Source of the DNA: Paracoccaceae bacterium
GTDB lineage: Bacteria; Pseudomonadota; Alphaproteobacteria; Rhodobacterales; Rhodobacteraceae
Length of the DNA: 64,000 bases
Reading direction: 5' to 3'
Assembly (NCBI GenBank): GCA_033344815.1
Contig: JAWPMR010000001.1
Span: forward strand, 5,008,136 to 5,072,135
Shown: positions 207 through 58,228 of the stretch, piece after piece
Numbering within the stretch: the first letter of the stretch is position 1
How the letters are laid out: every line of letters begins with the position of its first letter
Made by a program: the position numbers and the translations under genes
The notes under the pieces: generated by a model
The model's database searches: none
What the model saw: the letters and a program-made list of their open reading frames with translations, nothing else
What the model was told of the DNA's origin: nothing

Positions 207-694
207 GTATCCAGTCCGCAGACCGCGCCTTGATCAAAGCCTGCCAGGCGGGCCTGCCGCTGGTTGCAAAACCTTATGCGCAGATCGCGCGGCAGTTGGG
301 TTTGCAAGAGGCAGAGGTAATGGAGCGTCTCGACGGGCTGCTCGGGCAGGGGGTGATCCGGCGGATCGGCATCGCGCCCAACCACTACAAGCTAGGCATG
401 GCGGCAAATGGCATGACCGTCTGGGACATTGACGACGCGGAGGCCGAAGAGCTGGGCGCGCTTGTCGGCGCGATGGTGGACGTAACGCACTGCTACCTGA
501 GGCCCCGGAAACGCCCTGTCTGGCCTTATAATCTTTTCGCCATGCTGCACGGATCGACCCGCGCGGAAGTCGAGGAGAAACGCCAACATATCCTGCAGCT
601 GCTCGGGCCTGCGGTCCGCGCGCATGACGTTCTCTATTCAACGCAAATCCTCAAGAAAACCGGTCTGCGACTGGCCACCAAGGGAGGCACCTGA
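203..694 (+). CDS. nirH: Sirohaem decarboxylase subunit NirH
   Basis: A 163-residue AsnC/Lrp-like protein. An N-terminal winged helix-turn-helix (residues ~5-60, with [17 protein letters not shown] and the GVIRRIG turn) is followed by an alpha-beta domain containing the [16 protein letters not shown] stretch. That H/R-rich loop with conserved tyrosine and tryptophan is characteristic of haem d1 decarboxylases rather than true Lrp regulators. It acts with the other Nir decarboxylase subunits on sirohaem. It overlaps the upstream gene by 4 bp and its stop overlaps the nirJ start by one base, placing it inside the nir operon. NirH versus NirL is assigned by order, not by a unique residue. Confidence 0.85.
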
Positions 695-4139: not shown

Positions 4140-4372
4140 GCGCCGAACGACCCTGGCCGGTGGGGAAGCTGGCGCTGTTGCTCTATCCTTTCGTGGTTGG
4201 GGCGGTCGCGATCAACCTCTTCATGTTTGCCCTGATGGCGCCGGTTGTGGGGCTTGATCCACTGGAGCCGGTGAAAGCTCTGAAATGGGCGGTTGGTCTT
4301 GGGGTTCCGGCGGCATGGGCTGCTGGTCGTTGGGCGCGCCACTTGATGGACCGCGCGGACGGTCGGACTTAA
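4136..4372 (+). CDS. Small membrane protein (NnrT-like)
   Basis: 78 residues with two predicted membrane segments (~12-32 and ~46-63) and basic flanks. It overlaps the chelatase by 4 bp (ATGA), so it is part of the same transcript. It resembles the short NnrT-type proteins found next to nir/nor genes in Rhodobacter, whose function is not settled. The similarity is from memory of the family's size and pattern (KLALLLYPF...AINLF), so the name is tentative. No catalytic residues are visible. Confidence 0.55.
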   Translation: MSAERPWPVGKLALLLYPFVVGAVAINLFMFALMAPVVGLDPLEPVKALKWAVGLGVPAAWAAGRWARHLMDRADGRT

Positions 4373-4440
4373 CCAAGGTCAAGGCTCTGGCCGGGTTCAC
4401 CGGGTTTGATGGGTGAAACATCTCCGGGGGAGCCACCTGC

Positions 4441-19594: not shown

Positions 19595-19614
19595 GTTTGG
19601 AAAGAAGTGAAGAG

Positions 19615-20370
19615 ATGCTGTTGAAACGCTTGGGACGACGTACCGTCCGACGACCTAAATTGCGCCGAAGGGTGATTGCGATTTTCGCCAGTATTCTGAT
19701 GTCATCTTTCCAACCGGTCGCTGCTGACATGACAGACAAGGAATTCGAAGAGCGGCTGCGCAGCTATATTCTGGCGCACCCAGAGATCATCCTGGAAGCG
19801 ATGGAAACACTATCAGAGCGAGAGAGACGTGCGACGCAAACTGCACAAATTGCCAAGTATGCTGAGATTTTTGAGGAGCCACCCATTCTGGGCATTGGCC
19901 CAGCTGCGGCTGAACACACTGTCATTGAGTTTTTTGATTACCGCTGCGCGCCCTGTAAAGCGTTGCATCCAAAATTGAAGGCTGCTTTGAAAGATCATCC
20001 CACAATTCGGGTTGAAATGCGACATCTGCCCATTCTGTCGCCCGGTTCCGAGCGCAGTGCGCGCTTTGCACTGGCGGTCAGGACTGTGGGCAGTCCTGCG
20101 CAATACCGCCGCGTGCATGAAGCATTGTGGACGTTGAAAGGCCCCTTACAGGAGCCCGCTTTCGAAAAGATTGCGTTGGCGCAGGGGTTGGATTGGGCGA
20201 CGGTGCGTTCAGAGATGAAAAGCGATGCAGTCTCAGCGCGGATAAGCACCAATCGCGACATAGCAATTGATCTGCAAATCCTTGGAACACCGGCCTTTGT
20301 CACTCCCACATCCGTCAGTTTTGGGGGCACGGATGCAGAGGCTTTGGTGGTTGGTTGGCTTAGTCAATAA
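19615..20370 (+). CDS. DsbA/Com1-like periplasmic thiol oxidoreductase
   Basis: About 251 residues from ATG 19615; a TTG at 19597 is an alternative. A long basic N-region precedes a signal segment (IAIFASILMSSFQPVAA). Next comes a short helical domain (DKEFEERLRSYILAHPEII), common in Com1/ScsC-type proteins. The thioredoxin domain follows with active site CAPC in FFDYRCAPCKAL, and the cis-proline in GTPAFVTP. It should form or shuffle disulfides in the periplasm. It converges on the ferredoxin reductase gene and overlaps it by 11 bp. Confidence 0.85.
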   Translation: MLLKRLGRRTVRRPKLRRRVIAIFASILMSSFQPVAADMTDKEFEERLRSYILAHPEIILEAMETLSERERRATQTAQIAKYAEIFEEPPILGIGPAAAEHTVIEFFDYRCAPCKALHPKLKAALKDHPTIRVEMRHLPILSPGSERSARFALAVRTVGSPAQYRRVHEALWTLKGPLQEPAFEKIALAQGLDWATVRSEMKSDAVSARISTNRDIAIDLQILGTPAFVTPTSVSFGGTDAEALVVGWLSQ

Positions 20371-21160
20371 ACGCTTTTTCGACCACAAAATGTTTGGGAT
20401 CGGAATTGGCCCCCTCAAGTAATCCGTGGGCCTCGCAGATCGACATGATATCCTTGTTCAGGGCTAGATTGCCGCATACCATCACGCGGTCCTCGGTGTT
20501 GTTCCATTCGGGCGTACCGAGCGTTTCGAACACGCGGCCCTCGCGCAGATGATCGCTGATCCGGCCTTCGATCTCGGATGGCTCGCGCGTGGTGGTGGGG
20601 TAGTATTTCAACTTGTCATCGACCAGCTCTCCGATCAGCGGATCGTCGGGCAATGCCTTCACCAGGGTGCGGCCATAGGCCAGTTCCGCGTTGGTGCGGC
20701 AGGTGTGGGCAAGGATAACCTCATCATATTGCTCATAGGTCTCGGGATCGCGCAGAAGCGAGGCAAAGGGGGCCACACCGGTGCCGGTGCAGACCATCCA
20801 CAACCGCTTGCCCGGGAGCAACGCATCCAACACGAGCGTGCCGACAGGTTTGGGGCGCAGGATAATCTCATCCCCCGGTTCGATCTTTTGCAGACGTGAG
20901 GTGAGCGGGCCGTCGGGTACTTTGATGGAGTAGAACTCCAGTTCTTCATCCCAGCTGGGCGAAGCGATGGAATAGGCGCGCAGTAGCGGCTTGCCGTCAT
21001 CCTTGAGCAGCCCGATCATGACAAATTCGCCCGAGCGAAAGCGCAGGGATTGAGGGCGCGAGACCCGAAAGGAAAACAGCGTGTCTGTCCAGTGATGCAC
21101 GGAGGTGACCGTCTGTGCGTCGGGCATGATTTTGGTGGGGGTGGCGGTTTGAACATTCAT
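20360..21160 (-). CDS. fpr: Ferredoxin--NADP(+) reductase
   Basis: 266 residues of the bacterial FPR type. The FAD-binding motif RAYSIASPSW is near residue 62. NADP-binding comes from CTGTGVAPFASLLRD (~residue 123) and VMVCGNLALNKD (~residue 226). The C-terminus EKAFID matches the family's short ending. It moves electrons between NADPH and ferredoxin. It lies 11 bp downstream of a ferredoxin gene on the same strand, and both are divergent to the AprA-like cluster, so the pair may supply that cluster with electrons (inference). Confidence 0.93.
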   Translation of the reverse strand: MNVQTATPTKIMPDAQTVTSVHHWTDTLFSFRVSRPQSLRFRSGEFVMIGLLKDDGKPLLRAYSIASPSWDEELEFYSIKVPDGPLTSRLQKIEPGDEIILRPKPVGTLVLDALLPGKRLWMVCTGTGVAPFASLLRDPETYEQYDEVILAHTCRTNAELAYGRTLVKALPDDPLIGELVDDKLKYYPTTTREPSEIEGRISDHLREGRVFETLGTPEWNNTEDRVMVCGNLALNKDIMSICEAHGLLEGANSDPKHFVVEKAFID

Positions 21161-21171: not shown

Positions 21172-21513
21172 TTATGCCGCCTCGGCGGCGGGTTTCTCAG
21201 AGAAATGACTCTCAAGCTTGCCATCCTGTCCGTCCATCTCGTCGGCGGTGGGCAACGGGTCTTTGGCCTCCGTGATCACGGGCCAGATTTTCGCGTATTT
21301 TTCGTTGAAGGTGACCCATTCCTCCATTCCGTCTTCGGTATCGGCGCGAATCGCATCGGCAGGGCATTCGGGCTCACACACGCCGCAGTCGATACATTCG
21401 ACCGGGTCGATCACCAGCATGTTTTCGCCCTCGTAAAAGCAGTCTACCGGGCAGACGGAAACGCAGTCGGTATATTTGCAGGCAATGCAGTTGTCGGTGA
21501 CGACGAATGTCAT
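21172..21513 (-). CDS. fdxA: Seven-iron ferredoxin (FdxA type)
   Basis: 113 residues. The N-terminal [18 protein letters not shown] gives the [3Fe-4S]-type ligand set shared with a [4Fe-4S] cluster completed by [12 protein letters not shown]. The long acidic/helical tail ([15 protein letters not shown]) is typical of the Azotobacter FdI-like family in alphaproteobacteria. Soluble electron carrier, probably a partner of the adjacent reductase. Transcribed away from the DUF971 gene across a 119-bp region with a large inverted repeat. Confidence 0.93.
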
Positions 21514-21632: not shown

Positions 21633-21923
21633 ATGATTGACTGCCTTTCCGCCACACCAGACTGCCGCAACTTGATCGTTGAATGGGACGACGGGGCCAC
21701 ATCGCAATTGCCCGCCACCATACTGCGCCGCGAGGCCCGTGATGCCTATTCTACAAGGGCGCGAATCGATCATGGTGAGATCAAAGTCGCCGATGGATTG
21801 ACCATCACCAACCTCGTCCAGGTGGGGCCCGCGGGCGTAAACGTCCATTTTTCAGACGGTCATGACCGCGCTGTCTATCCTTTTGTCTACCTTCGCGAAC
21901 TTTCCGAGCAATACGGAAACTAA
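21633..21923 (+). CDS. DUF971 (gamma-butyrobetaine hydroxylase N-terminal-like) protein
   Basis: 96 residues starting at ATG 21633 behind AGAGGGGA. The pattern IVEWDDGATSQLPATILRREA, then the GPAGVNVHFSDGHDRAVYPF strand pair and YLREL, is that of the small DUF971 domain. As a free protein it is often found near Fe-S proteins and is thought to bind zinc or iron; here the usual Cys/His ligands are few. It is 65 bp upstream of the AprA-like gene on the same strand and is likely the first gene of that transcript. Confidence 0.8.
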   Translation: MIDCLSATPDCRNLIVEWDDGATSQLPATILRREARDAYSTRARIDHGEIKVADGLTITNLVQVGPAGVNVHFSDGHDRAVYPFVYLRELSEQYGN

Positions 21924-21988
21924 TTGACATATGCCGCGCCGCAGCGCCGCGCAGGCTGAACACAACCTCATAGGACTGGAGCCTTTTC

Positions 21989-23731
21989 ATGGACGAAATA
22001 TTGGATGGAACGACGCAGATTGATTGCGACATCCTGATCATTGGCGGCGGCACGGCCGGTCCGATGGCGGCGATCAAGGCTAAGCGCAAGAACCCCAATG
22101 CAAATGTGGTCTTGCTCGACAAGGCCAATGTGAAACGCTCAGGGGCCATTTCGATGGGCATGGACGGGCTGAACAACTCGGTCATTCCCGGCTATGCCAC
22201 GCCAGAGCAGTACACCAAGGAAATCACCATCGCCAACGACGGGATCGTCGATCAAAAGGCGGTCTATCGCTATGCCGAGGAATGCTACAGCATCATCGAA
22301 GAGCTGGACCAGTTCGGCATCCGTTTTCAAAAGGACCAGAACGGCGAATATGACGTCAAGAAGGTGCATCACATCGGCACCTATGTGCTGCCTATGCCCA
22401 ATGGTGACACTGTTAAAAAGGCGCTCTATCGCCAGCTGCGCAAGGCGCGCATCAACGTTGTAAACCGCTATATGGCAACCCGTCTGCTGACTGGCGAGGG
22501 GCGCATCGCGGGTGCGATCTGCGTGAACACCCGCACAGCCGAGTTTCTGGTCGTGCGCGCCAAGGCCGTGATCATGTCGCTGGGGGCCGCCGGGCGTCTG
22601 GGACTGCCGTCGTCCGGCTATCTGTATGGCACCTATGAGAACGCGTCAAACTCGGGCGAGGGCTATTCCATGGCCTATCACGCCGGCGCGGGCCTCGCGA
22701 ACCTTGAGTGTTTCCAGATCAACCCACTGATCAAAGACTATAATGGCCCTGCCTGTGCGTATGTCGCGGGTCCGATGGGGGGCTATACGTCGAACGCGCA
22801 GGGCGAGCGGTTCATTGAATGTGACTATTGGTCCGGTCAGATGATGCAGGAATTCTATGATGAACTGCAGGGCGGCAAGGGACCTGTGTACCTCAAGCTC
22901 AACCACCTGGCCGAAGAAACCGTGGCCGAGATCGAGCGTGTGCTGCACATCGTCGAACGCCCCACCCGTGGGCATTTCCACAAAGGGCGTGGCACAGATT
23001 ATCGCAAGGACATGATCGAGATGCACATTTCTGAGATCGGATTTTGCTCCGGCCACTCCGCCAGCGGCGTGTTTGTGGACGAGCGGGCGCGCACGACGAT
23101 TGACGGACTCTATGCTGCAGGTGACATGGCGAATGTGCCGCATAACTACATGCTTGGTGCGTTTACCAACGGTGCTTTTGCGGGTCTGGATGCGGTTGAT
23201 TTCGTCAAAGACGTGGATTTCGCGGACTTCGACATGGGCGAGGTTGATGCCGAACGCATCCGTGTGTTGGCACCAACCAAACGCGATGATGGCGTTCCAC
23301 CGAACCAGATCGAATATAAAACACGACGCTTTGTGAACGATTACCTGCAGCCGCCAAAAGTGACCGCCAAGATGGAACTGGCACAGCGCCGGTTCGAAGA
23401 AGTGCGCGATGACATGGAAAACCAGATGTATGTGCGCGACAGCCACGAATTGATGCGCTCGCTTGAGGCCTCCGCGATCATGGATTGCGCAGATATGGCG
23501 GCAGCCGCCTCGCTTTACCGGACAGAGAGCCGTTGGGGCCTGTATCACAACCGCGTGGAATACGAGCGCGATGATGAGAACTGGTTCTGCCACACGATCC
23601 TCACCAAAGGCGAGGATGGCAAACCCGCGCATGCCAAAAAGGCGGTCGATGACTACATCGTCGAAATCGATGATGACGAAAAGGACGCTTACAACAACCA
23701 ACGTGTGACCAAAACGGTCGCGGCAGAATAA
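21989..23731 (+). CDS. AprA-like / fumarate reductase-type flavoprotein
   Basis: 580 residues of the FAD-dependent succinate dehydrogenase/fumarate reductase superfamily. The dinucleotide-binding IIGGGTAGPMAA is at ~17-28, SGAISMGMDGLNN at ~51-63, and the second FAD contact GLYAAGDMA at ~373. The partner gene is AprB-like and the SGA...N motif parallels adenylylsulfate reductase alpha, but the protein is shorter (AprA is ~620-660). The pattern FCSGHSASG replaces the usual fumarate-reductase active site. It is therefore a divergent AprA-like oxidoreductase with an unproved substrate. It has no signal peptide, so is cytoplasmic. 11 bp before the ferredoxin gene; probable complex. Confidence 0.75.
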   Translation: MDEILDGTTQIDCDILIIGGGTAGPMAAIKAKRKNPNANVVLLDKANVKRSGAISMGMDGLNNSVIPGYATPEQYTKEITIANDGIVDQKAVYRYAEECYSIIEELDQFGIRFQKDQNGEYDVKKVHHIGTYVLPMPNGDTVKKALYRQLRKARINVVNRYMATRLLTGEGRIAGAICVNTRTAEFLVVRAKAVIMSLGAAGRLGLPSSGYLYGTYENASNSGEGYSMAYHAGAGLANLECFQINPLIKDYNGPACAYVAGPMGGYTSNAQGERFIECDYWSGQMMQEFYDELQGGKGPVYLKLNHLAEETVAEIERVLHIVERPTRGHFHKGRGTDYRKDMIEMHISEIGFCSGHSASGVFVDERARTTIDGLYAAGDMANVPHNYMLGAFTNGAFAGLDAVDFVKDVDFADFDMGEVDAERIRVLAPTKRDDGVPPNQIEYKTRRFVNDYLQPPKVTAKMELAQRRFEEVRDDMENQMYVRDSHELMRSLEASAIMDCADMAAAASLYRTESRWGLYHNRVEYERDDENWFCHTILTKGEDGKPAHAKKAVDDYIVEIDDDEKDAYNNQRVTKTVAAE

Positions 23732-23742
23732 GGAATAATATC

Positions 23743-23988
23743 ATGCCCTTGGCTCAAACCTCTACTATTGTTCCGGTCGTTGTGGATGATGCGCTTTGTA
23801 TCGCTGACAAAGGCTGCACCGTTTGCGTCGACGTCTGCCCTCTGGATGTTTTGCGTATTGTCGAAGGGCCCGATGGTAGTCCAGTCACTGCACATATGAA
23901 GTACGACGAATGTTGGTACTGCATGCCCTGCGAAGCGGACTGCCCCACCGGTGCCGTCACCGTGAACTTGCCCTTTTTGTTGAAGTGA
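23743..23988 (+). CDS. AprB-like two-[4Fe-4S] ferredoxin subunit
   Basis: 81 residues. Two cluster motifs are seen: CIADKGCTVCVDVCP (C-x5-C-x2-C-x3-CP) and CWYCMPCEADCP (C-x2-C-x2-C-x3-CP). The CWYC form with tryptophan between the clusters resembles adenylylsulfate reductase beta (CWECYSC). The ~60-residue C-terminal tail with which AprB wraps round AprA is absent. Likely electron-transfer subunit of the preceding flavoprotein. 11 bp after it and 7 bp before the HEAT-repeat gene. Confidence 0.8.
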   Translation: MPLAQTSTIVPVVVDDALCIADKGCTVCVDVCPLDVLRIVEGPDGSPVTAHMKYDECWYCMPCEADCPTGAVTVNLPFLLK

Positions 23989-23995
23989 GACGGAT

Positions 23996-24952
23996 ATGAA
24001 CGCGCTCTTTGAAGACTTTGACGAAATCGCCGAACTGGCCGAGGCGCTGGACGATCCATCGCCGGGGGTGCGGATCATGGCCGTGATGGAGCTGGCTGAC
24101 AGCGCTGATCCAGCGGCGATCGCTCATCTGGCCCGCGCGATTGCGGACGAAGATGCAGGCGTACGCAAACAAGCAGCGCTGGCTTTGACTGATTTTGACG
24201 GGCCAGAAACCGCTGCAGCCTTGGTGTCGGCGTTGACCGACAGCGATGTAGCTGTGATCGAAGCTGCAGCGACAAGCCTGACAGAGTTGAAAGATCCCGC
24301 AGCAGGCGATGCGATCCTGCCGCAGCTGGGCGAGACAGAGACCGTCAAATTGCATGCTTGTCTTGCCGGGATAAAGGAATTGCGCCGACCCGAGGCGATG
24401 GGCCCTGCGATACAAGCGCTGAAACACAGCGATGCGGGTGTGCGGGTGGAGGCTGTTGGCGTGATCGGCTGGTTGCAGGACGAAGGATCACTGCCAGCAT
24501 TGCGCGATGCGGCCAAGGATGGTGACCCGCAAGTCCGGCGCACGGCGCTTGCGGCGTTGGGGTTTTCCAAGTCCGAACATGCCGAGGCCACGCTGGTTGC
24601 CGGGTTGAAGGACCCTGAATGGCTAGTGCGTGAGGCGGCAGCGGAAACACTTGCCAAGACCGGAGGAGCAGCCTGCGTGGCGGCACTGCGCCCCGCTTTG
24701 GCGGATGATTTCTGGCAAGTCCGGGTCAAGGCGGTGCGGTCTTTGGGCAAGCTGAACGCCACTGACACCGCCATCGAAATTGCGCCGATGATGGACATTC
24801 CTGTGCCGAATTTGCGCAAGGAATGTGCGGCGGTTCTGGGTGAAATGGCCGTGCCGGAGACAGCGCCGTTTCTGGAAAAATACAAAGACGATCCTGACCC
24901 GGATGTACGCAAAAACGTACGTTGGGCTTTGGGGAGAATAGGCATTCAATAG
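23996..24952 (+). CDS. HEAT-repeat protein
   Basis: 318 residues built almost wholly of about nine 31-residue HEAT repeats (e.g. DEDAGVRKQAALALTDFDGP, DGDPQVRRTALAALGFSKSE, DPDPDVRKNVRWALGRIG). No catalytic motif and no signal peptide; strongly acidic. Such scaffolds bind partner proteins. With the AprA/B-like pair directly upstream it may be an assembly factor or third subunit. The same three-gene set next to a sulfonate-type ABC transporter is, as I recall, seen in other proteobacteria, but I know of no assigned function. Confidence 0.85.
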   Translation: MNALFEDFDEIAELAEALDDPSPGVRIMAVMELADSADPAAIAHLARAIADEDAGVRKQAALALTDFDGPETAAALVSALTDSDVAVIEAAATSLTELKDPAAGDAILPQLGETETVKLHACLAGIKELRRPEAMGPAIQALKHSDAGVRVEAVGVIGWLQDEGSLPALRDAAKDGDPQVRRTALAALGFSKSEHAEATLVAGLKDPEWLVREAAAETLAKTGGAACVAALRPALADDFWQVRVKAVRSLGKLNATDTAIEIAPMMDIPVPNLRKECAAVLGEMAVPETAPFLEKYKDDPDPDVRKNVRWALGRIGIQ

Positions 24953-25265
24953 CCCCCATCAGGGGTCACATTCAGTTTATTTATGCACTCTTTGGCTTGT
25001 GTCGTGGGGTGCTTTTCTCGTCTGCATTTTTTCGTTTAAGTATATGTTTTAAAACATAAAAAAGTGCGCCCGATTCTTAATCATTCATTCATTTCTCCCT
25101 TTCAATGAGTCTAATTTTCACCCGAGCCGCCGCTTTTCCCGCCCATCTTTTGTGCGTCCGGCAATTTCGGTGAATTACACGCGGAAAAAGCTGCGAATAT
25201 CCCGCATCGGCCCGGATACTGGCGTGGACAATGAATTTAAATACCACCGAGGAACGGAGAATGAC
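24953..25265. other. Intergenic promoter region of the ABC transporter/copper operon
   Basis: 313 bp, clearly A+T-rich in the middle. It separates the HEAT gene from the binding-protein gene and so should hold the promoter of the downstream 8-gene operon. CCCCATCAGGGG at ~24955 is a 4-bp-stem hairpin, too weak to call a terminator. The 16-bp palindrome at 25043-25058 is listed separately. No perfect -35/-10 was identified. Confidence 0.5.
25043..25058. promoter_or_regulatory. Perfect 16-bp palindrome, candidate operator
   Basis: TATGTTTTAAAACATA is a perfect palindrome ~210 bp upstream of the binding-protein ATG. Its size fits a Crp/Fnr-family dimer site but its sequence is not the FNR consensus TTGAT-N4-ATCAA. 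The operon's last gene encodes a Crp/Fnr-type regulator, the obvious candidate binder (inference). Confidence 0.45.
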
Positions 25266-26642
25266 ATGGAACTCAAGACAAGTTTAAGATCCGCATTACT
25301 GGCGGCGACGATGATCCCCTTTGGATTGGCCACTCAGGCGGAAGAGATCACAATCGCAGTCGGCCACCAGTCGATGTGTACGGACACGTATACAGCCGGC
25401 ATCGTGATCAAAGAGCTGGGTCTGCTGGAAAAGTACCTGCCCACCGATGGCAAATACGCCGATGCAGAATATGACATCAGCTGGGCGGACTACAGCTCTG
25501 GCGGCCCGATCACCAACCAGATGCTGGCCAACAAGCTGAACTTTGGGGTGATGGGTGACTATCCGTTGATCGTGAACGGTGCCAAGTTCCAAGAGACCGA
25601 CAGCCTGCGCACCGTTTATGTCGCGGGCACAGGGTATAACCTCAAAGGCTCCGGCAATGCCATTGTCGTACCGGTGGACAGCGACATCTATTCCATCGAT
25701 CAGTTGAAGGGCAAAGAGGTCTCCACCCCTGTGGGGTCAGCCGCTTGGGGCATGTTGCTCAAAGCGATGCAGGACAACAACATCCCGACCTCCGAGTATG
25801 TGTTGAAGAACCAAAGCCCGGCTGTAGGCGCGGCCAACATTGCTGCTGGCAAGATCGACGCGCACTCTGATTTCTGTCCATGGTCCGAGATCATGGAATA
25901 CCGTGGCACCGGTCGCAAAATCTATGATGGTTCAGAAACCGGCGTGCCGTACCTGCACGGCGTTGTTGTGCGTCAGGACTTTGCCGAAGAATACCCGGAG
26001 GTCGTGCAGGCCTTTATCAAGGCCGTCTATGAAGCCGGTGAATGGATCCGCGAAGATCCAATGCGCGCTGTGACCGAAATGGAAAGCTGGACGGGCGTCG
26101 AGAAAGAGGTGCTTTATCTCTACTTTTCCAAAGGGGGGCACCTGACGCTGGAACCGTCGATCAAAACCGAATGGGTTGACGCGCTCAAGTTCAACCACGG
26201 TGTGCTGGTCGCCGAAAAAGCGATCCCGCCGCTCGATTTTGATGCGTGGATCACTGAGGATTACCTCAAAGCCGCCTATGCCGACATGGGTGTCGACTAT
26301 GAGGCGTATAAAGCTTCAATGGTTGACCCTGAAGTCGCCAACAAAGGCTTGCCGATGGAAATCTGGCACTCTCGTGACGGTGTCAGCACCTATGAAACAC
26401 CGGCTGAATTCCTCAAAGGCATGGCGGACATCCGTGCGACAGCCGCGCTGGTCAATGCCACCTATGTCTATGACGTGGAAACGGGGCTGAAGCTCTTTGG
26501 CAAGACCGCCTTCTGGGTCAAAGCGGGCGATGCCTACGCCACCTTCCTGCGCAAAGGCGAGGCTGAGGCTTTTGCAAGTGCAAACGCCGGAGAAGTTGTG
26601 ACGTTTGACGACGCGATTGCGGCCTACGCCACCGACGGCTGA
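25266..26642 (+). CDS. NitT/TauT-type ABC substrate-binding protein with NosL-like C-terminal domain
   Basis: Start ATG 25266 gives a signal peptide (LRSALLAATMIPFGLATQA) behind a GGAACGGAG site. Residues ~25-360 form a SsuA/TauA/NrtA-like binding fold (GPITNQMLANKLNFGVMGDY, GSAAWGMLLKAMQDN). From ~370 a second segment has TYVYDVETG, AFWVKAGDAY and EAEAFASANAGEVVTFDD. It parallels the second half of NosL in this same window (YVND, YYVVGS, AGAFAKANGGEV). The NosL N-terminal CxM copper motif is absent there; the only cysteine near the start is in HQSMCTDT. At 458 residues it is longer than usual (~320-340). Ligand unknown. Confidence 0.75.
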   Translation: MELKTSLRSALLAATMIPFGLATQAEEITIAVGHQSMCTDTYTAGIVIKELGLLEKYLPTDGKYADAEYDISWADYSSGGPITNQMLANKLNFGVMGDYPLIVNGAKFQETDSLRTVYVAGTGYNLKGSGNAIVVPVDSDIYSIDQLKGKEVSTPVGSAAWGMLLKAMQDNNIPTSEYVLKNQSPAVGAANIAAGKIDAHSDFCPWSEIMEYRGTGRKIYDGSETGVPYLHGVVVRQDFAEEYPEVVQAFIKAVYEAGEWIREDPMRAVTEMESWTGVEKEVLYLYFSKGGHLTLEPSIKTEWVDALKFNHGVLVAEKAIPPLDFDAWITEDYLKAAYADMGVDYEAYKASMVDPEVANKGLPMEIWHSRDGVSTYETPAEFLKGMADIRATAALVNATYVYDVETGLKLFGKTAFWVKAGDAYATFLRKGEAEAFASANAGEVVTFDDAIAAYATDG

Positions 26643-26657
26643 TGAGGCCTTCTTGCA

Positions 26658-26686
26658 GGTCCCGGACGGCACGATCGTCCGGGACC
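26658..26686 (+). promoter_or_regulatory. Strong intercistronic hairpin between binding protein and permease genes
   Basis: GGTCCCGGACG and CGTCCGGGACC form an 11-bp perfect G+C-rich stem with a 7-nt loop. There is no U-tract and the permease gene follows at 26721. Such hairpins often protect the upstream mRNA end or partly stop transcription, giving excess binding protein over membrane parts. Confidence 0.7.
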
Positions 26687-26720
26687 ATCCAACGCGCACA
26701 CCAAACGGAAAGCCGAAGTC

Positions 26721-27611
26721 ATGCAGCCACTTGCAACGAAAACCGACCCTGCACCGTCCTCGGATGTCGCGAAAGATGTCAGCGTGCCGGCAGAGTCAGA
26801 ACCGCCGGTGTCACCGGTGTTCAAACTGTCCGCGATCCCGCCACAGGTTTTGCAAAACATTGGCATCGCTTTGATCTCGCTCAGTATTGGTGTTGTGCTG
26901 TGGCACATCGCGACTGCGATCAATCTCGACTTCTATATCAACTTTTCCAATGTGCCTGCGCCGCTAAAGGTTTTTACGGCCTTCATCGCCCATATCCAGA
27001 CCGAGATTTTCTGGACCCATATCGGCGTCTCCATGCGGCGCATTCTGATCAGTTATTCCATTGCCGTGGTCCTGGGCATCGGGATCGGTTTGATCATGGG
27101 CCGTTCGCGCATCGCGCGCGCCTTTGTGATGCCCTACATCGAGGTGATCCGCCCCATTCCTGCGGTGGCCTGGATACCGCTCGCCATTCTGATGTGGCCG
27201 ACCGAGGAAAGCTCGATTATCTACATCACCTTTCTGGGCGCGCTTTTTCCGATTGTTCTGAACACTCTGCACGGGGTTGAGCAGACGCCGGAAGTGCTGG
27301 TTCGTGCCGTGCAATCGCTGGGCGCTTCGCGGCTGGATGTGTTTCGACATGTGGTGATCCCTGCGGCCTTGCCCTCCATTGCCGCAGGGTTGGCGATTGG
27401 CATGGGGGTCAGCTGGTTTTCCCTGCTCGCGGGCGAGATTATCTCGGGCCAGTACGGGATCGGCTACTTCACATGGAACGCCTACAGCCTGATCAACTAT
27501 CAGGACATCGTCGTGGGCATGCTGGTGATCGGGGGCCTTGGGACCGCCTCAACCGCAGCCGTCAAATACGCAACGTCCCCGATGTTGAAATGGCAAAAGA
27601 GGTCGCGGTGA
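26721..27611 (+). CDS. ABC transporter permease, SsuC/TauC type
   Basis: 296 residues with about six helices and a ~45-residue Pro/Ser-rich cytoplasmic N-terminus. The EAA loop is at VRAVQSLGASRLDVFRHVVI followed by PAALPSIAAGL, typical of the nitrate/sulfonate/taurine permease family. Ribosome site GGAAAG. The stop overlaps the next ATG (TGATG). Forms the inner-membrane channel for the adjacent binding protein and ATPase. Confidence 0.92.
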   Translation: MQPLATKTDPAPSSDVAKDVSVPAESEPPVSPVFKLSAIPPQVLQNIGIALISLSIGVVLWHIATAINLDFYINFSNVPAPLKVFTAFIAHIQTEIFWTHIGVSMRRILISYSIAVVLGIGIGLIMGRSRIARAFVMPYIEVIRPIPAVAWIPLAILMWPTEESSIIYITFLGALFPIVLNTLHGVEQTPEVLVRAVQSLGASRLDVFRHVVIPAALPSIAAGLAIGMGVSWFSLLAGEIISGQYGIGYFTWNAYSLINYQDIVVGMLVIGGLGTASTAAVKYATSPMLKWQKRSR

Positions 27612-28276
27612 TGGAGGTTGTAAAAACACTTGGTCGAGCCGTGCGCCGTGATTGGCGGCGCATGATTGTTACCGGGCTGATGTTTGCGGTGGGGATGCAG
27701 GTGCTGATGATGATCGCCCTTATGGTGCGGTTTCAGGGGCTGCCGAATTACGCCGTCGGATATGACTGGATCGGCAACGTCATCCACATCATCAAATCAA
27801 CGCCCTCATGGGGCGATATCATGCCAATAGTCAATCAGGAATGGCTGATCGAGATCGGCAAGATGAACTATGACTACGGCACGGGCATCTCTGAATGGAG
27901 CCTTAACGTCGTGCCTGTCCGCATGATTGTGCTGTTTGTGCTTGGGGCCTTGGTCGCCCTGTGCCTGAGCCTGCTGCGTGCGGACGGGTGCGATGTGGCC
28001 ACCGGCACCACCCTGCGCGCCACAACCGGATTGGGCACGGTGCTGATCGCTATGACCAACGCCACGATGAGCTGGGTTGTCTGTTGTGCAGCGCCGTCCT
28101 GGGTTGTTGGCCTTGCGATGCTGGGGCTTGGTGTTTCGACTTCTCTGGCGCTTGAATCCATGGGCCCTGCGCTCAACCTTGCGGGGTTCGGATTGTTGCT
28201 GTGCACGGCCCTTTATCTGGCGTGGCGCAAGGTGCGCCGCGCGCAATACCTCTCTGGGAGCCTGAAACATGCTTGA
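27611..28276 (+). CDS. Membrane protein of unknown function inside the ABC operon
   Basis: 221 residues with ~5 hydrophobic segments (~18-40, 101-122, and three between ~135 and 208). It is not a second permease: no EAA loop is visible. Notable are a vicinal cysteine pair within a helix (SWVVCCAAPSW), a Met-rich first helix, and a soluble loop (~43-95) of unknown fold. The start overlaps the permease stop and the 3' end overlaps the ATPase start by 8 bp, so it is made in step with the transporter. I do not recognise the family. Confidence 0.85.
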   Translation: MEVVKTLGRAVRRDWRRMIVTGLMFAVGMQVLMMIALMVRFQGLPNYAVGYDWIGNVIHIIKSTPSWGDIMPIVNQEWLIEIGKMNYDYGTGISEWSLNVVPVRMIVLFVLGALVALCLSLLRADGCDVATGTTLRATTGLGTVLIAMTNATMSWVVCCAAPSWVVGLAMLGLGVSTSLALESMGPALNLAGFGLLLCTALYLAWRKVRRAQYLSGSLKHA

Positions 28277-29111
28277 TGTTCTAAAGTTCAAACAGCCCAA
28301 TGGCGCGCCCGTCGCACAAGCCGACAAAGGTGAGATCAAGATCAAAGATGTCTCGATCACCTTTGGGCGCGGCCCAACCGAATACCGCGCGGTTGAAACC
28401 ACCTCCATCGATATCAAAGCCGGAGAGTTCGTATGCATTCTTGGCCCTTCTGGCTGCGGTAAGTCCACACTGATGAACGCGGTTGCGGGCTATGTGCAGC
28501 CGACCACCGGCGCGGTCACGGTCGATGACATTGAGGTCAAAGGCCCGGGCCCTGACCGGGGAATGGTGTTTCAGCAATATTCCTTGCTGCCCTGGAAAAC
28601 CGTTTACGAAAACGTCGCCTTTGGCCCCAAAATGGCGGGTGCTACCAGAACCGAAGCGGGGTCGGTTGCGAACACTTTCCTTGGCCTTGTTGGCCTGAGA
28701 AAATTCGGAGACCGCTATCCCGCAGAGCTATCGGGCGGCATGCAGCAACGTGTGGGGATCGCCCGCGCGCTGGCCAATTATCCCAGCGTTTTGCTGATGG
28801 ACGAACCCTTTGGCGCGCTTGACGCTCAGACGCGGCTGATGATGCAGGAAAGCCTGCTTGATATCTGGCGGCAGTTCGGCACCACGGTTGTCTTTGTAAC
28901 CCATGATGTGGATGAGGCGGTGTTCCTTGCCGATCGTGTATTGATCATGAGCGCAGCCCCCGGCCGCATCATCGAGGATGTGCGGATCAAGCTACCACGC
29001 CCGAGGTCCACCGATATGGCCGTTACACCGGAATACATGGAAGCACGGCAATTCTGTCTGGACACGATTAAGTCTGAAAGCCGCAAGGCCTTTGCGGAGC
29101 AGAACAAATGA
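28269..29111 (+). CDS. ABC transporter ATPase, SsuB/TauB/NrtD type
   Basis: 280 residues. Walker A GPSGCGKST (~residue 60), Q-loop FQQYSLLPWKTV, signature LSGGMQQRVGIARAL and Walker B VLLMDEPFGALDAQTR are all intact, with the switch HDVDEA. It energises the neighbouring permease. About 20 extra residues precede the usual start. Overlaps the SCO gene by 4 bp. Confidence 0.93.
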   Translation: MLDVLKFKQPNGAPVAQADKGEIKIKDVSITFGRGPTEYRAVETTSIDIKAGEFVCILGPSGCGKSTLMNAVAGYVQPTTGAVTVDDIEVKGPGPDRGMVFQQYSLLPWKTVYENVAFGPKMAGATRTEAGSVANTFLGLVGLRKFGDRYPAELSGGMQQRVGIARALANYPSVLLMDEPFGALDAQTRLMMQESLLDIWRQFGTTVVFVTHDVDEAVFLADRVLIMSAAPGRIIEDVRIKLPRPRSTDMAVTPEYMEARQFCLDTIKSESRKAFAEQNK

Positions 29112-29704
29112 TCCGCTTTGCACCTCTCGGTTTCGCTCTGGCTATTGGGGCTGGCGCACAGGCACAAGTGCAGGGTGTCATGCTGGACGAACCTGTCGCG
29201 CTGCCAGCGTTGTCTTTTCACGATGAAAACGGCCAAACCTATGAAACTGCGGACCTCACCGGTCAATGGACGCTGATCATGATCGGCTTTCTCACTTGCC
29301 CGGATGTCTGCCCCTTCACCCTCGGCAATCTGGAAGCCGCCGTTGCCGAAACCGGCCTACGCGTACGGCCTGACAATCTGCCAAAGGTCTGGTTCCTGTC
29401 CGTCGATCCCGCACGCGATACGGACTATGTCAGCGAATACGGTCCGTTTTTTCATCCCGACTTTCGCAGCATGACCGGCACCCGCGAAAACATCGACACT
29501 TTTGTCGAGGTCTCCGATGGCTACTACCGTTTGATGCCCCCGGATGCGGATGGCTTTTACGACGTTCAGCACACATCCGCCGTTTCTGTCATCGCACCGG
29601 ACGGAACATTGCTGGCCAAGCTGCAGCCGCCGTTTGATCCCGGCCTCACGGCAGAATTCCTGTCGCGTCTTCAAATCTCATACCGCAAGGAGCTTTCCCA
29701 ATGA
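29108..29704 (+). CDS. SCO1/SenC copper chaperone-like protein
   Basis: 198 residues with a short signal (MIRFAPLGFALAIGAGAQA). Thioredoxin-like fold with the copper-binding CPDVCP motif (~residue 63) and the partner histidine in QHTSAVSV (~residue 156). SCO proteins reduce or load the CuA site of oxidases, and some act on nitrous-oxide reductase. Overlaps both neighbours by 4 bp; being coupled to an ABC importer is unusual. Confidence 0.92.
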   Translation: MIRFAPLGFALAIGAGAQAQVQGVMLDEPVALPALSFHDENGQTYETADLTGQWTLIMIGFLTCPDVCPFTLGNLEAAVAETGLRVRPDNLPKVWFLSVDPARDTDYVSEYGPFFHPDFRSMTGTRENIDTFVEVSDGYYRLMPPDADGFYDVQHTSAVSVIAPDGTLLAKLQPPFDPGLTAEFLSRLQISYRKELSQ

Positions 29705-30132
29705 TCCGATACTTCTCAACCACGGCTCTCTTGATGACCGCCACCGCGCTCGCAGCGCAAGACATCAAAGCAACCAACGCCCATGTCCCGCAATCCCCAC
29801 CCGGCTCCATGGCGCATGCGGCTTACATGCAGTTGGAAAACACGACAGATAAAGTCCGAAGTGTGATCGGCGTTGAGGCGTCTGGTTACGGCATGGCCCA
29901 CCTGCACAGCAGCGAGATGAAAGACGGTGTCGCCACCATGACCATGGTGCACCAGTTGGACATCGCACCGGGGCAAAGCGTTTCGCTTGAGCCCGGCAGC
30001 TTCCACATCATGCTGATGCGCCCCGAAGCAATGGCCAAAGTGGGCGATAGCGTTGATCTGAAAATTCTGTTTGCGGATGGTGATACGCTGGAGGTGGCAG
30101 CCGAAGTTACATCCCGCTCCGATGGGTCGTGA
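29701..30132 (+). CDS. PCu(A)C periplasmic copper chaperone
   Basis: 143 residues with signal MIRYFSTTALLMTATALAA. The DUF461 cupredoxin-like fold carries the Cu(I) ligands as HLHSSEMKDGVATM and FHIMLMRPE, the expected H/M-x10-M...HxM pattern. It passes Cu(I) to CuA sites together with SCO, whose gene it overlaps by 4 bp. Also overlaps the cytochrome gene by 4 bp. Confidence 0.93.
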   Translation: MIRYFSTTALLMTATALAAQDIKATNAHVPQSPPGSMAHAAYMQLENTTDKVRSVIGVEASGYGMAHLHSSEMKDGVATMTMVHQLDIAPGQSVSLEPGSFHIMLMRPEAMAKVGDSVDLKILFADGDTLEVAAEVTSRSDGS

Positions 30133-30701
30133 AATTTCTGCTCGCCTCATGTGCGTTCGTTTTGGCGCCGCCTGCTGCAGCCGATTTCGATGCGGCCAGC
30201 TATCCCCCCTATGAGACTTGTGCGTTGTGCCATGGATTGTTCGGGCAATCACGGACAGCGAAGTTCCCACACCTTGCCGGACAGAAACCAGCCTACCTGC
30301 GTGCCCAACTCGATGCGTTCCTTGCCGGTGAGCGTTCCAACGACGGCGGCCAGATGGTGAGCATCGTGACAGAGCTCAAACCAGAGGATTTTGAAGTGGT
30401 GGTCAAATGGTTTTCGGAGCAAGACCCGCCCGCGCCATCATCCGTGCCCACTCATACTGTCGGCAAAGAGCTTACTAGTGAGGCCGGATGCCTGACGTGT
30501 CATGGCGAAGGTGGTGCAGAGGACGTGCCACACCTGACGGCCCAGCACGCCGGATATCTGGCGAAACAAATGCACGACTTCCGCGACGGAGCGCGCACAC
30601 ATGGCGCGGCGGCTGATCTGCACCGGCAAGTCTTTCAATCAATGGACGATGGCATCGATCAAATCGCCGCCTACTTGTCTTCGCTGGAAAGGTCCCCATG
30701 A
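30129..30701 (+). CDS. Dihaem cytochrome c (c4-like), periplasmic
   Basis: 190 residues from a GTG start that overlaps the upstream stop. Signal MKFLLASCAFVLAPPAAA. Two class I haem sites: CALCH (~residue 31) and CLTCH (~residue 121); distal methionines are offered by GGQMVSIV and the second half. The two-domain form resembles cytochrome c4, an electron carrier to copper oxidases and reductases. Overlaps the regulator by 4 bp. Confidence 0.88.
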   Translation: MKFLLASCAFVLAPPAAADFDAASYPPYETCALCHGLFGQSRTAKFPHLAGQKPAYLRAQLDAFLAGERSNDGGQMVSIVTELKPEDFEVVVKWFSEQDPPAPSSVPTHTVGKELTSEAGCLTCHGEGGAEDVPHLTAQHAGYLAKQMHDFRDGARTHGAAADLHRQVFQSMDDGIDQIAAYLSSLERSP

Positions 30702-31423
30702 CAGAAATGAAGCCCATTCCTGACACCGACCCAAGTGCGATTTTCCTGTCGGAATACCTGCTTGAAATCAACACAGGTGCCGGCTTTCTGTCCTCGCTAT
30801 CGCGGGATGACCAGAAACAGGTGCGCAGACACGGGACAAGATGCAAGATCGCCAAAGGCGAGGGGGTGTTTTTTCAAGGTGATCCGCACACGGGTGTGTG
30901 GGTTGTCGAAAAGGGGCGCATCAGAACCTACTATGCCGGACCCTCCGGGCGCGAAATCACACTGGCCTACTGGAGTGTGGGACATTTTATCGGCGGACCC
31001 GAAGTGTTCGGTATGGGACGTCACGTCTGGTCCGCTGACGCACTAGAAGATTGCGAACTGCTCTTTGTGTCCGGTGCAAGCCTCCTGCGGCTGGTGCGCG
31101 AAATTCCGGATGTTGCGGTCGCTGTGATCAATGGCTTGGTCAACAAAGGAAAGTGCTACTCTGCTCTGATCCAGATGCTGGGCACACGCACAGTTTCTGA
31201 ACGGCTCCGGCAGTTGCTGGTGATTTTGGCCGAAACGTATGGCCGTCACGAAGAAGGCCAAATTGTCGTTGACCGCGACATCACATACGATCAGATCGCA
31301 ACCATTGTGGGGGCCACCCGTCAATGGGTGACACAGTCGCTTGACCGGCTTCAAAATGAAGGCGTTCTAAAGGTGAGCCGCAAAGAAATTACCATATTGG
31401 AGCTGGACCAGCTCTATTCCTGA
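30698..31423 (+). CDS. Crp/Fnr-family transcriptional regulator
   Basis: 241 residues. N-terminal cyclic-nucleotide-binding-like beta-barrel (~30-150), dimer helix, and C-terminal winged helix with ITYDQIATIVGATRQWVTQS (~195-214). The N-terminal cysteines needed for an FNR [4Fe-4S] cluster are missing and the recognition helix lacks the FNR E-SR pattern (here TRQWV), so it is a different branch, perhaps sensing a small molecule. Last gene of the eight-gene operon, so probably autoregulatory; see the palindrome at 25043. Confidence 0.9.
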   Translation: MTEMKPIPDTDPSAIFLSEYLLEINTGAGFLSSLSRDDQKQVRRHGTRCKIAKGEGVFFQGDPHTGVWVVEKGRIRTYYAGPSGREITLAYWSVGHFIGGPEVFGMGRHVWSADALEDCELLFVSGASLLRLVREIPDVAVAVINGLVNKGKCYSALIQMLGTRTVSERLRQLLVILAETYGRHEEGQIVVDRDITYDQIATIVGATRQWVTQSLDRLQNEGVLKVSRKEITILELDQLYS

Positions 31424-31702: not shown

Positions 31703-32423
31703 ATGGAATACTATGTTGGCTTGGATGTGTCGCTGCGGCCGTGCGCGCTTTGTATCCTGGATTCCACAGGGTAGGTGCTGTTGGAGCGCGAACTGCTTTG
31801 AGAGGTCCGTGATATCGCATAGTACCTTGGCGTTTTTCCGCATCCGATTGAACGGATCGGCTTTGAAGCATGGCAGCTTCGACGGAATCGTCCGACCCTT
31901 GATCGAAATGGCCGAAGTTCTGGCGCATGCACTGGTGCCACTCCTTGATGCGCGGCTCGTTTTATATCAGCACTTTCTGGAACTTGACCCGCGGGTCGAA
32001 CGCGCTGCAAGCCACGATGACGTATGCATGCGCATGATGACTGTGCCGGGTGTAGGCCCCATCGCCGCTTTAACCTTCAAGGCTGCTGTCGATGATCCCG
32101 CTCGCTTCAAGCGTTCCTGGACAGTTGCCGCGCATTTTGGACTGACGCCGCGACGCTATCAGTCGGCTGAACACGACAACCCTGGCCGTATATCGAAGGC
32201 AGGCGACCCAGATGTCCATGCAAGGCTCTACTCAGTGACAAATGCGCTTCTGATGCGCACGATGGCGAGGTCGCAGATCAAACCATAGGGCACGCGGCTG
32301 CTCCGCACCAAAGATCGTCGTCGCGCTGTCGTAGCCGTTGCCTGTAATCTCGCCGTCTTGCGCCACCGCATGTGGACATACGGCACAGAGTTCCGTTCGG
32401 CACAGGTTGAAGACATAGCATGA
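31703..32423 (+). pseudogene. IS110-family transposase, broken
   Basis: The N-terminus MEYYVGLDVSLRPCALCILD is the start of an IS110 DEDD transposase. An in-frame TAG near 31772 ends it, a middle part is missing, and the frame shifts. The C-terminal transposase_20 region (MMTVPGVGPIAALTFKAA followed by FGLTPRRYQSAEHD) continues in another frame from about 31900. A last shift near 32288 leads to the family's end (TYGTEFRSAQVEDIA). So at least three lesions and an internal deletion. The element is dead. Upstream 31424-31702 probably includes its left end, but no inverted repeats were resolved. Confidence 0.88.
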
Positions 32424-37389: not shown

Positions 37390-40300
37390 ATGTCTATCGA
37401 TCGCGACTCATTCGATGATGCGCCATTTGAAAACCTGACTGACGGAGACGATCAAGAGTACCGTTTTGCGTCAACGCGGAATGAAGCGATCGATGGTGGT
37501 GGTGGCGATGACGTTATTCTCACAGGATCAGGCAATGACGCGGTCAAAGGTGGTGCCGGGAATGACTATATCGCTACTGGCGCAGGGAATGATACGCTAG
37601 CCGGCGGTGCTGGATCGAACATTTTGTCTGGGGGCGCAGGTTCGGATACATTCGTTTTCGACGCAACTGACCTCGGTGACCCGAGCGAAGTGAACTATAA
37701 CACGATTACTGACTTTGACCCGAGCGAAGATACGCTTCGACTTGTTGGCTTCGATTATTCGTCGGTCAGCGACATTCCTGCGTTTGTGACGCCATCTGGA
37801 TTGATGCTTCAATTGGCTCCAAGCAAGTTCTTGATCTTACAAGGTGTCATGTCAACTGATGCTTTGGCGACAGCGGTTGATTTTGGTGAAACAAGTCAGC
37901 CACCTGTCGTGTCTGCCAACCTGGTTCAGGACACCGGCACCGATGGCGACGGTGTGACATCCGATCCAAGCGTTGCTGGTCAGGTAAGCGGTGACACAGA
38001 GATTGTCGGCCTTTTCCTCGTCATCAACGGCGGCACGGAAGTCGATGTCAGTGCTGCCTTGAATCCCGATGGCAGCTTTACAATTGATCCGACAGAGTTT
38101 GCGGAGCTCACCGATGGGGCAACGACGTTCGATCTACGCGCTGTTGACGCCGACGGGCTTTCTTCTGAAGTGGTTTCGGTAGGTCTGGAGTTGGATCGTT
38201 CTGATCCCGCTATTTCGGATCTTGCTTTGGATGTTGCCTCGGACACAGGTGAGTTGGGCGACGGCAAAACCGATCTTCGTGAGATCACGCTGACAGGCAA
38301 AACTGAAGCTGGTGCAACAGTCTCTGCGGCGGGTCAGGAAATAGTTGCGGACGAGAACGGCGACTTTTCGATCAGCGGGATCGCGATCGAGACAGGTGTG
38401 AACACGATCGCGTTCACAGCGACCGACCTTGCTGGCAACAGCTCCACATCAAGCATTGAAATCGAGGGGACGGAAGAACCCAGCGACCCACCTGTCGTGT
38501 CTGCCAACCTGGTTCAGGACACCGGCACCGATGGCGACGGTGTGACATCCGATCCAAGCGTTGCTGGTCAGGTAAGCGGTGACACAGAGATTGTCGGCCT
38601 TTTCCTCGTCATCAACGGCGGCACGGAAGTCGATGTCAGTGCTGCCTTGAATCCCGATGGCAGCTTTACAATTGATCCGACAGAGTTTGCGGAGCTCACC
38701 GATGGGGCAACGACGTTCGATCTACGCGCTGTTGACGCCGACGGGCTTTCTTCTGAAGTGGTTTCGGTAGGTCTGGAGTTGGATCGTTCTGATCCCGCTA
38801 TTTCGGATCTTGCTTTGGATGTTGCCTCGGACACAGGTGAGTTGGGCGACGGCAAAACCGATCTTCGTGAGATCACGCTGACAGGCAAAACTGAAGCTGG
38901 TGCAACAGTCTCTGCGGCGGGTCAGGAAATAGTTGCGGACGAGAACGGCGACTTTTCGATCAGCGGGATCGCGATCGAGACAGGTGTGAACACGATCGCG
39001 TTCACAGCGACCGACCTTGCTGGCAACAGCTCCACATCAAGCATTGAAATCGAGGGGACGGAAAGCGGCGGATCTGAAGTTTCGAGCATCGGGCTTTCCA
39101 ATGATAGTGGCGGATCTGAAGTTGATTTAATCACGAATGATCCTGTGCTTGTTGGGCAGCTGACCGACACTGGAACTGAAAAGCTCTTTGTTAGCGTAAA
39201 TGGCGGCCCCCAATTTGATGCATCCGTCGGATTGGACGGAGACGCATTTGAGTTAACTCAAGACCTTTTGGAGCAAGCTGCTGGGAGTTCTCTTCCTGAC
39301 GGCGAGATTACTGTTTCCGTGTTTGCCGAAGATAACGCAGGACAGCAAGGTGAGGCGGAAGAGATCACCTTTGTTTTGGATACTACCGTTCCTGCTCTTA
39401 ACGATGTCGGGCTGGCAGCATCGTCGGATACCGGAATACGTGGGGACGGCGTTACCGCCTTGAGATCCGTCAGGTTGACCGGCGAAGGCGAACCAGGTGC
39501 AAGCGTCACCGCGAGTGGAGTTTCCACCGTAGTATCTGTTGATGGAACTTTTACGCTTAACGGAGTGCCGGTGGCGGAAGGCGAAAACCTGATTTCGCTG
39601 ACTTCGGTCGATTTAGCTGGGAACTCTAGCCAAACCGAACTGGCAATTACCGGGATTGGCGCCGTTGAAGGCCAACCCGTGCTTGTCTGGAACGATATCA
39701 CGCTGGAGGCGATTGCCGACAACGCCGAAGGAGCAACCGGAGCGTCGCGAATACTGGCCTTGCAATCGGTGGCAGTCCACGATGTCATTGCTGCGATTGA
39801 TAACGCCCCTGCGTTTCTCGTTCAGGAAGATGTTTCCGGGGATGTGAATCTGTCAGCAGCAGTTGCGCAGGCATCGTATCTTGTTCTCAGCTATGCATAT
39901 CCAGCTTTCCAAGACGAATTGGATGCCTATTTGGCTGAAGCGCTTGCAGGTGTTCCTAATGGTGCCGCAGAAGACGCGGGCATAGCGCTGGGGCAGGCTG
40001 TTGCGGAGAGGTTGATCGAAATCCGGGATGCAGACGGATGGGACGACTTTGAAACGGTCAGCGGTAGCGAAGATCCTGGTCAGTGGCGCGAAACAGGTCC
40101 GCTCTTCGAACCTGCTATCGATCCACAATGGGCGTCAATGAACACTTGGGCTTTGCAGTCTTCTGATCAGTTTCGCGTTGATGCGCCACCTGTTTTGTCC
40201 AGTTCCGAATATGCTGATGCCGTGGAGGAAGTCCGGGTTATAGGCTCAACAGATAGTACCGAAAGGACATTGGATCAGACTGAGGCTGCACGCTTTTGGA

Positions 40301-58224: not shown

Positions 58225-58228
58225 CGCC

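Follow-up and report, generated by a model that had tools for sequence, protein, structure and literature searches.

A conserved gene set joining an AprBA-like flavoprotein to an ABC importer, with a possible role in the release of organosulfur-derived sulfite

We analysed a 64,000-nucleotide stretch of a Paracoccaceae bacterium genome (contig JAWPMR010000001.1, positions 5,008,136 to 5,072,135; hereafter "the window"), in which twelve + strand genes at 21633-31423 encode an AprBA-like flavoprotein and ferredoxin, a HEAT-repeat protein, an ABC importer and a group of proteins that includes copper chaperones. This gene set is real and conserved, and it is functionally undescribed as far as we searched: no function was assigned to it in the literature covered, which mostly left aside subscription papers. 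We propose that it imports an organosulfur compound and releases the sulfur reductively as sulfite, a reading for which we judge the chances to be about even. As far as gene content goes, the link to copper is real, and it is a property of the importer. The enzyme family reaches rhizobia, methylotrophs, Burkholderiales, roseobacters, cyanobacteria and actinobacteria under the bare annotation "fumarate reductase/succinate dehydrogenase flavoprotein", and its neighbourhood offers a testable role for it, the formation of sulfite from organosulfur compounds.

Open reading frame (ORF) and profile analysis of the window places the genes in two blocks separated by about 310 bp (24952 to 25266). The first block encodes a 96-aa DUF971/GBBH-like_N protein (21633-21923; PF06155, E = 5.8e-14), the 580-aa AprA-like flavoprotein (21989-23731), an 81-aa AprB-like 2x[4Fe-4S] ferredoxin with eight cysteines in two motifs (23743-23988) and a 318-aa HEAT-repeat protein with five HEAT_2 stretches (23996-24952). 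The second block begins with the importer: a substrate-binding protein (SBP; 25266-26642), a permease (26721-27611; PF00528, E = 1.1e-22), a membrane protein that we call Mem (27611-28276) and an ATPase (28269-29111; PF00005, E = 1.1e-31). It continues with a SCO/SenC protein carrying CPDVC in its translation (29108-29704; PF02630, E = 5.1e-25), a PCu(A)C copper chaperone (29701-30132; PF04314, E = 5.2e-28), a dihaem cytochrome c with two CxxCH sites (CALCH and CLTCH) and two Cytochrom_C stretches (30129-30701), and a Crp/Fnr-family regulator with cNMP_binding and HTH_Crp_2 domains (30698-31423).

A first-pass annotation of this DNA had described twelve same-strand genes with tightly overlapping junctions from the permease on, and the coordinates bear this out. 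With 27611 taken as the start codon of Mem, the overlaps are 1, 8, 4, 4, 4 and 4 bp; an alternative in-frame ATG at 27590, present in some homologues, would lengthen the first to 22 bp. What that annotation overlooked is a divergent pair directly upstream on the - strand, encoding an FdxA-type ferredoxin (21172-21513; Fer4 and DUF3470) and a ferredoxin-NADP reductase (FNR; 20360-21160; Pfam NAD_binding_1 and FAD_binding_6). Both have homologues in related loci and probably belong to the gene set.

For comparison we used the best 80 of at least 596 loci from a scan of GTDB species genomes with the enzyme, so that every count out of 80 below describes the closest relatives. Each locus extended up to 10 kb per side (20 kb or more in 65 of the 80) and was searched by tblastn with identity and coverage limits; some absences stem from truncated contigs. 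The AprB-like ferredoxin and the HEAT protein were each found in 79/80 loci, the SBP, permease and ATPase together in 70/80, DUF971 in 65/80 and the Crp/Fnr regulator in 59/80. Homologues of FNR (49/80) and FdxA (24/80) were less frequent, as were a YeiH-family exporter (30/80), a GntR-type regulator (18/80) and Mem (11/80). The AprBA-like pair, the HEAT protein and the importer, which the first-pass annotation had grouped together, thus form one recurring set.

Varied copies of the core are annotated on plasmids of Methylobacterium, Rhizobium, Mesorhizobium, Sinorhizobium, Bradyrhizobium and Paraburkholderia, and also of Aquabacterium, Methylocystis, Acidithiobacillus, Nostoc and Tsukamurella. 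On Methylobacterium plasmid pMRAD01, fdxA and FNR are annotated 3' of the ABC ATPase, FNR two genes on, and the Nostoc core is accompanied by an Mrp/NBP35 ATPase. The Tsukamurella flavoprotein gene is 893 aa long. In the long form represented by PRK13800, residues 7-569 match the window flavoprotein and residues 608-895 match the window HEAT protein; because the two are joined there, they are probably partners in the window as well. Within the host's own order the enzyme is rare (2/244 genomes at E<=1e-100, one copy decayed), and its nearest relatives are found in roseobacters; the host itself is probably a marine roseobacter.

The flavoprotein is a member by score of NF006131 (PRK08275; 1042.7 bits over residues 7-577 against a cut-off of 587), a family named solely "fumarate reductase/succinate dehydrogenase flavoprotein subunit". 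The same generic name is attached to NF010374 (PRK13800), whose 898-position model spans flavoprotein and HEAT protein in one. On the other hand, the flavoprotein and its ferredoxin fall far under the AprA and AprB cut-offs (TIGR02061, 128.3 against 641.75; TIGR02060, 22.8 against 135.65). The nearest solved structure is the alpha subunit of the 3'-phosphoadenosine 5'-phosphosulfate (PAPS) reductase of M. thermolithotrophicus (MtPAPSR; 8a8o), followed by the adenosine 5'-phosphosulfate (APS) reductase of A. fulgidus.

Alignment of 31 members shows four invariant cysteines (C241, C256, C353 and C500) and an invariant His356, which aligns with H346 of MtPAPSR. In A. fulgidus numbering we take Arg265, Trp234, Asn74 and His398 to be the active-site residues of APS reductase. 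The position of Arg265 is occupied by L247 in the window enzyme and by leucine in 31/31 members; Asn74 is kept, the Trp234 position is a tyrosine in the profile, the Gln145 position is changed, and A. fulgidus H398 falls outside the aligned stretches. We therefore rejected an identity as APS or PAPS reductase, since the arginine is replaced and the scores are so low. The enzyme lies outside that group by score and by residues, and thus probably has a chemistry of its own; a step in which its FAD handles sulfite would be an analogy with the reductases. Set beside AprBA and MtPAPSR as described in the accessible part of PMC10322725 (PDB 8a8o, 2fja), the window enzyme shares an FAD-binding alpha subunit with a two-cluster ferredoxin, the asparagine and the histidine, and it differs in the leucine, the loss of Trp234 and Gln145, the four invariant cysteines and the 81-aa length of its ferredoxin.

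The SBP has the clamshell fold and importer architecture of the SsuA/TauA group: an AlphaFold model (pLDDT 90.7) gave SsuA and TauA as its best PDB fold matches in Foldseek. Compared to these proteins, it carries an additional NosL-like C-terminus. The last 95 or so residues match NosL with an hhalign probability of 93.8% over 95 columns (profile of 6 NosL rows), and the whole SBP reaches 93.3% against the same profile, while four controls gave 0.1-0.2%; the Pfam NosL model hits this region below its cut-off (E = 0.01). The domain is found in SBPs from loci with and without the copper genes. The CxM and GGMG patterns, which we take to be the copper ligands of NosL, occur in 0/22 of these NosL-like domains.

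Copper-related genes mark a subset of the loci, which we refer to as the copper type. In 11/80 loci Mem is accompanied by SCO and cytochrome c, and 9/11 of these also have PCu(A)C; none of the four exceeds the tblastn limits in the 59 other SBP-bearing loci (one locus, L067, has a weaker SCO relative, at 28%). Distant bacteria, Granulosicoccaceae among them, show the same order SBP-permease-Mem-ATPase-SCO-(PCuAC)-cytochrome c-Crp, which makes a chance arrangement unlikely. Mem is found in 5/390 genomes of the order, always within this cluster. Its SWVVCCA motif contains a CC pair that is invariant among 12 sequences; its fold has no PDB match at E<=0.001. We rejected MerT as an identity for Mem, as the resemblance is at E = 4.3.

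The importer of these loci also has distinctive SBPs, with two cysteines beyond the SsuA/TauA pattern as well as the added membrane protein. The motifs GHQSMCTDTY and DFCPWSE are present in 12/12 copper-type SBPs, the window's included, compared to 0/69 and 1/69 (L066), respectively, of the other SBPs. Both motifs also occur in four further copper-type clusters, of which one is decayed and another probably belongs to the L048 genome. The window SBP has just two cysteines, C38 and C204, one in each motif. In the model's secondary structure they follow strands 27-34 and 199-202, each directly before a helix, and they may face each other across the cleft.

Two degraded copies were seen. In the window's own genome, G000:C1:1760979-1761647 (L114, L117) holds a decayed Mem relative (61% identity, one stop) with a C-terminal fragment of the permease, and a distant ATPase relative (32%) is the single further cluster gene found in the 20 kb covered. 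At G174:C23:186000-205000 (L121), in another genome of the family, lies a copper-type cluster that is largely in broken pieces.

Quick trees of the SBP and of the enzyme gave different histories for the copper label. On the SBP tree (36 rows, flagged with a long-branch warning) the label changes once, with support 99, whereas on the AprA tree (37 rows, with L006 omitted because its importer was not seen) it changes four times, three of them forced by starred branches. The sister of the window enzyme is that of Roseovarius locus L008, 95% identical, whose importer is of the non-copper type. Enzyme and importer therefore behave like interchangeable modules, and it is the importer with which the copper genes travel. 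The first-pass annotation had also grouped the copper genes with the importer, and this tie now rests on the cysteine motifs and on the label changes of the two trees. Since the copper-type SBPs form one clade, the 12/12 correlation amounts to one evolutionary event and is by itself no proof of copper binding.

Several features of the neighbourhoods point to sulfur. In 28/80 loci a match to YeiH/Cons_hypoth698, a family of sulfate or sulfite exporters, is no more than 400 bp away from a cluster gene. Four arrangements occur. Three roseobacter loci have the match 3' of Crp (overlapping it by 4 bp in L005), and Labrenzia, Aquabacter and Methylobacterium have it 3' of FNR. In Afipia and two Bradyrhizobium it is placed between DUF971 and FNR, and in 19 Bradyrhizobium it adjoins the ATPase. 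Two further stretches, one probably from the L048 genome, have YeiH 3' of Crp. The L005 protein matches PF03601 at E = 3e-56. In the accessible part of PMC11582611, YeiH is argued to export sulfite, and its relative SuyZ belongs to cysteate dissimilation. The Aquabacterium annotation places a TauE/SafE sulfite exporter gene two genes away from that of the flavoprotein; used as a tblastn query, this TauE matched 0/80 loci. A cluster of luciferase-like monooxygenases (LLM) is represented in 10/68 loci, a count that may include other LLM enzymes; the single member scanned is above the SsuD cut-off. In Paraburkholderia, genes for an LLM, a 3-mercaptopropionate dioxygenase and a rhodanese lie 3' of the cluster.

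We favour organosulfur import with release of sulfite because of these YeiH, TauE/SafE, SsuD-type and other organosulfur neighbours, the fold of the SBP and the kinship of the enzyme to the sulfite-forming PAPS and APS reductases. In this proposal the periplasmic SsuA/TauA-like SBP and the ABC importer would take up a compound with oxidised sulfur, a sulfonate being the likeliest. Electrons would pass from NADPH through FNR, FdxA and the AprB-like ferredoxin to the FAD of the AprA-like protein, which would free the sulfur as sulfite in the cytoplasm. The HEAT protein would be the scaffold, and DUF971, which we take to be linked to Fe-S maturation, might contribute there. The sulfite could leave through the YeiH-family exporter in many relatives, or it could be used. 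In the lineage of the window the importer would be a special one, distinguished by Cys38, Cys204 and Met37 of the SBP, by Mem with its CC motif, by SCO and cytochrome c and usually by PCu(A)C, and the copper genes would act in capture or import and not in support of the enzyme or of NosZ. The content and conservation of the gene set, the exchange of modules, the folds and the correlation of the motifs are observed; the class of substrate, the reaction, the path of the electrons and any copper binding by the SBP are proposed.

A number of observations weigh against this proposal. The leucine at the Arg265 position suggests that the chemistry of the enzyme may differ from that of the sulfite-forming reductases. 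The SBP scores under the SsuA_fam cut-off (TIGR01728, 116 against 163.5 bits). The YeiH count of 28/80 is a raw count that was not set against a lineage background, and its cases are not independent because 19/28 are Bradyrhizobium sharing one arrangement; moreover, the L005 protein falls below the TIGR00698 cut-off (123.7 against 232.6). The window cluster has no YeiH next to it; elsewhere in the genome there is only a weak relative (35% over 142 aa). Amidase genes are found in 8/80 loci, and the one that was scored resembles allophanate hydrolase (474.6 against a cut-off of 487), which makes a nitrogen compound possible. Seawater sulfate makes sulfur scavenging unneeded for marine hosts; any use of the set there would thus serve carbon, nitrogen or redox. 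Finally, the copper-type SBPs are a single clade, and their cysteine pair could be a disulfide.

How the copper genes might take part in uptake can be given a more specific form, which we regard as doubtful though worth stating. The SBP would capture its sulfur ligand by way of a Cu(I) bound to Cys38, Cys204 and Met37, or would bind the ligand in the form of a copper complex; Mem, SCO, PCu(A)C and cytochrome c would strip, recycle or re-oxidise the copper; and the AprBA-like enzyme, as one of a new catalytic type, would desulfurise the freed ligand in the cytoplasm. If the SBP truly uses copper, this would be an unusual way of taking up a sulfur compound, and it would explain why copper chaperones are encoded inside an ABC importer operon. 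It could also be speculated that at least the copper-type importer acquires copper or a copper complex for its own sake, with Cu(I) held by the same three residues, passed across the membrane by Mem and supplied to cytochrome oxidase by SCO and PCu(A)C, while the AprA-like enzyme acts on the ligand or otherwise. The cysteine pair and the copper genes do coincide in 12/12 cases and are both missing from L008 and L010, the closest relatives of the non-copper type; the invariant CC pair of Mem and the membership of PCu(A)C in a copper chaperone family fit as well. However, a 95% identical enzyme is paired with an importer that has no copper genes at all, and the fold relatives of the SBP bind sulfonates and similar small molecules, and we consider copper acquisition quite unlikely. 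A disulfide of purely structural importance is another possibility, in which case SCO, PCu(A)C and cytochrome c would be an independent respiratory copper module fixed by chance in one ancestor. This agrees with the single clade on the SBP tree and with the DsbA/ScsC-like gene found nearby in the window and in 5/80 loci. It is harder to reconcile with the copper genes and importer having stayed together through at least three label changes on the enzyme tree, across alpha- and gammaproteobacteria, or with the finding that Mem occurs outside the cluster in 0 of 390 genomes save for the one decayed copy, and we think such an origin improbable.

The substrate itself might be something other than a sulfonate, namely another small anion or an amide (for example ureido, cyanate-like or thiocyanate-like) that the flavoprotein reduces or cleaves. 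Among the fold relatives of the SBP are proteins that bind nitrate, bicarbonate or pyrimidine, and the amidase genes and the unconserved arginine of APS reductase are consistent with such a substrate; the recurring YeiH, the TauE of one locus and the SsuD-type and organosulfur neighbours favour sulfite instead, so that we rate this alternative as unlikely. As to thiocyanate, we rejected a match to the thiocyanate dehydrogenase cluster, as the accessible part of PMC5328954 describes another gene set. Nor did we retain the copper reductase gene of the window as a thiocyanate dehydrogenase: by eye it looks like an ordinary NosZ, with relatives in 76/244 genomes. The last explanation, a part for the set in the maturation of nitrous oxide reductase or in feeding sulfur to its CuZ copper-sulfur centre, had been raised by the first-pass annotation, which placed the cluster just after the nos genes. 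Those genes do lie upstream, but 6.7 kb separate the cluster from the end of the nosX-like gene at 14916, with an alpha/beta hydrolase gene and the DsbA/ScsC-like gene in between (of the window's nos genes NosL alone was scanned with Pfam, the rest being named by eye). This location, the copper chaperones and the NosL-like domain of the SBP speak for a nos role. In the window, a reach of 10 kb from the enzyme takes in NosL and NosX and stops just short of NosZ. In the comparison, NosZ, NosR, NosD, NosY, NosL and NosX were found in 0/80 loci by tblastn up to 10 kb on each side. We also ran the check for co-occurrence with nosZ that had been suggested. The background is 76/244 genomes of the window's order, the window genome included; compared to this, nosZ is present in 2/15 enzyme-bearing genomes (the copper-type loci and near relatives among the 80, some of them incomplete), that is, in 1/11 other copper-type genomes (Labrenzia alba) and 1/4 of the remainder (Roseovarius L008), with no enrichment (Fisher p = 0.24 for 2/15 and 0.18 for 1/11). 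The NosL-like domain, moreover, is shared with non-copper SBPs and is devoid of CxM and GGMG. The role in the copper-sulfur centre was accordingly not borne out, and we consider it very improbable; the proximity to nos looks incidental because the nos proteins are absent from the 80 loci and nosZ is not enriched.

Among described systems, organosulfur import with sulfite release most resembles AsfRABC of Pseudomonas putida S-313, which serves arylsulfonate desulfonation according to the accessible part of a review (PMC4267179). The two sets share a reductase/ferredoxin couple, an SBP and an ABC importer. In contrast, the Asf regulator AsfR is of the LysR type while the window set has a Crp/Fnr regulator (GntR in some relatives), and HEAT, DUF971, FdxA and FNR go unmentioned for Asf in that part of the review. 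In Aquabacterium and Paraburkholderia the annotation shows LysR genes close to the cluster; the regulators counted across the 80 loci were Crp/Fnr and GntR. The one candidate AsfA compared, from a C. metallidurans flavoprotein/ferredoxin pair that may be AsfAB, is a putative Rmet_4334 and shares 22% identity with the window flavoprotein over 399 positions; a pattern scan of a 49-kb C. metallidurans stretch, the guessed site of Rmet_4334, gave no match.

Other features of the window lie around the cluster. Upstream of the nos genes, at 203-5655, are genes that by eye resemble those for haem d1 synthesis and 5-aminolevulinate synthase. The DsbA-like protein with a ScsC_N domain (19597-20370) adjoins FNR, as its homologue does in L004, L005, L006, L007 and L009. 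Shortly 3' of Crp, at 31713-32288, is a piece of an IS110-family transposase, at the site that the YeiH-family exporter occupies in relatives L005, L007 and L048. Further on, an ORF of 5063 aa (37390-52581) begins with glycine/aspartate-rich repeats that by eye resemble calcium-binding RTX, and at 54082-63329 are - strand genes resembling, again by eye, Trb-type conjugation genes, which suggests a conjugative element downstream of the cluster.

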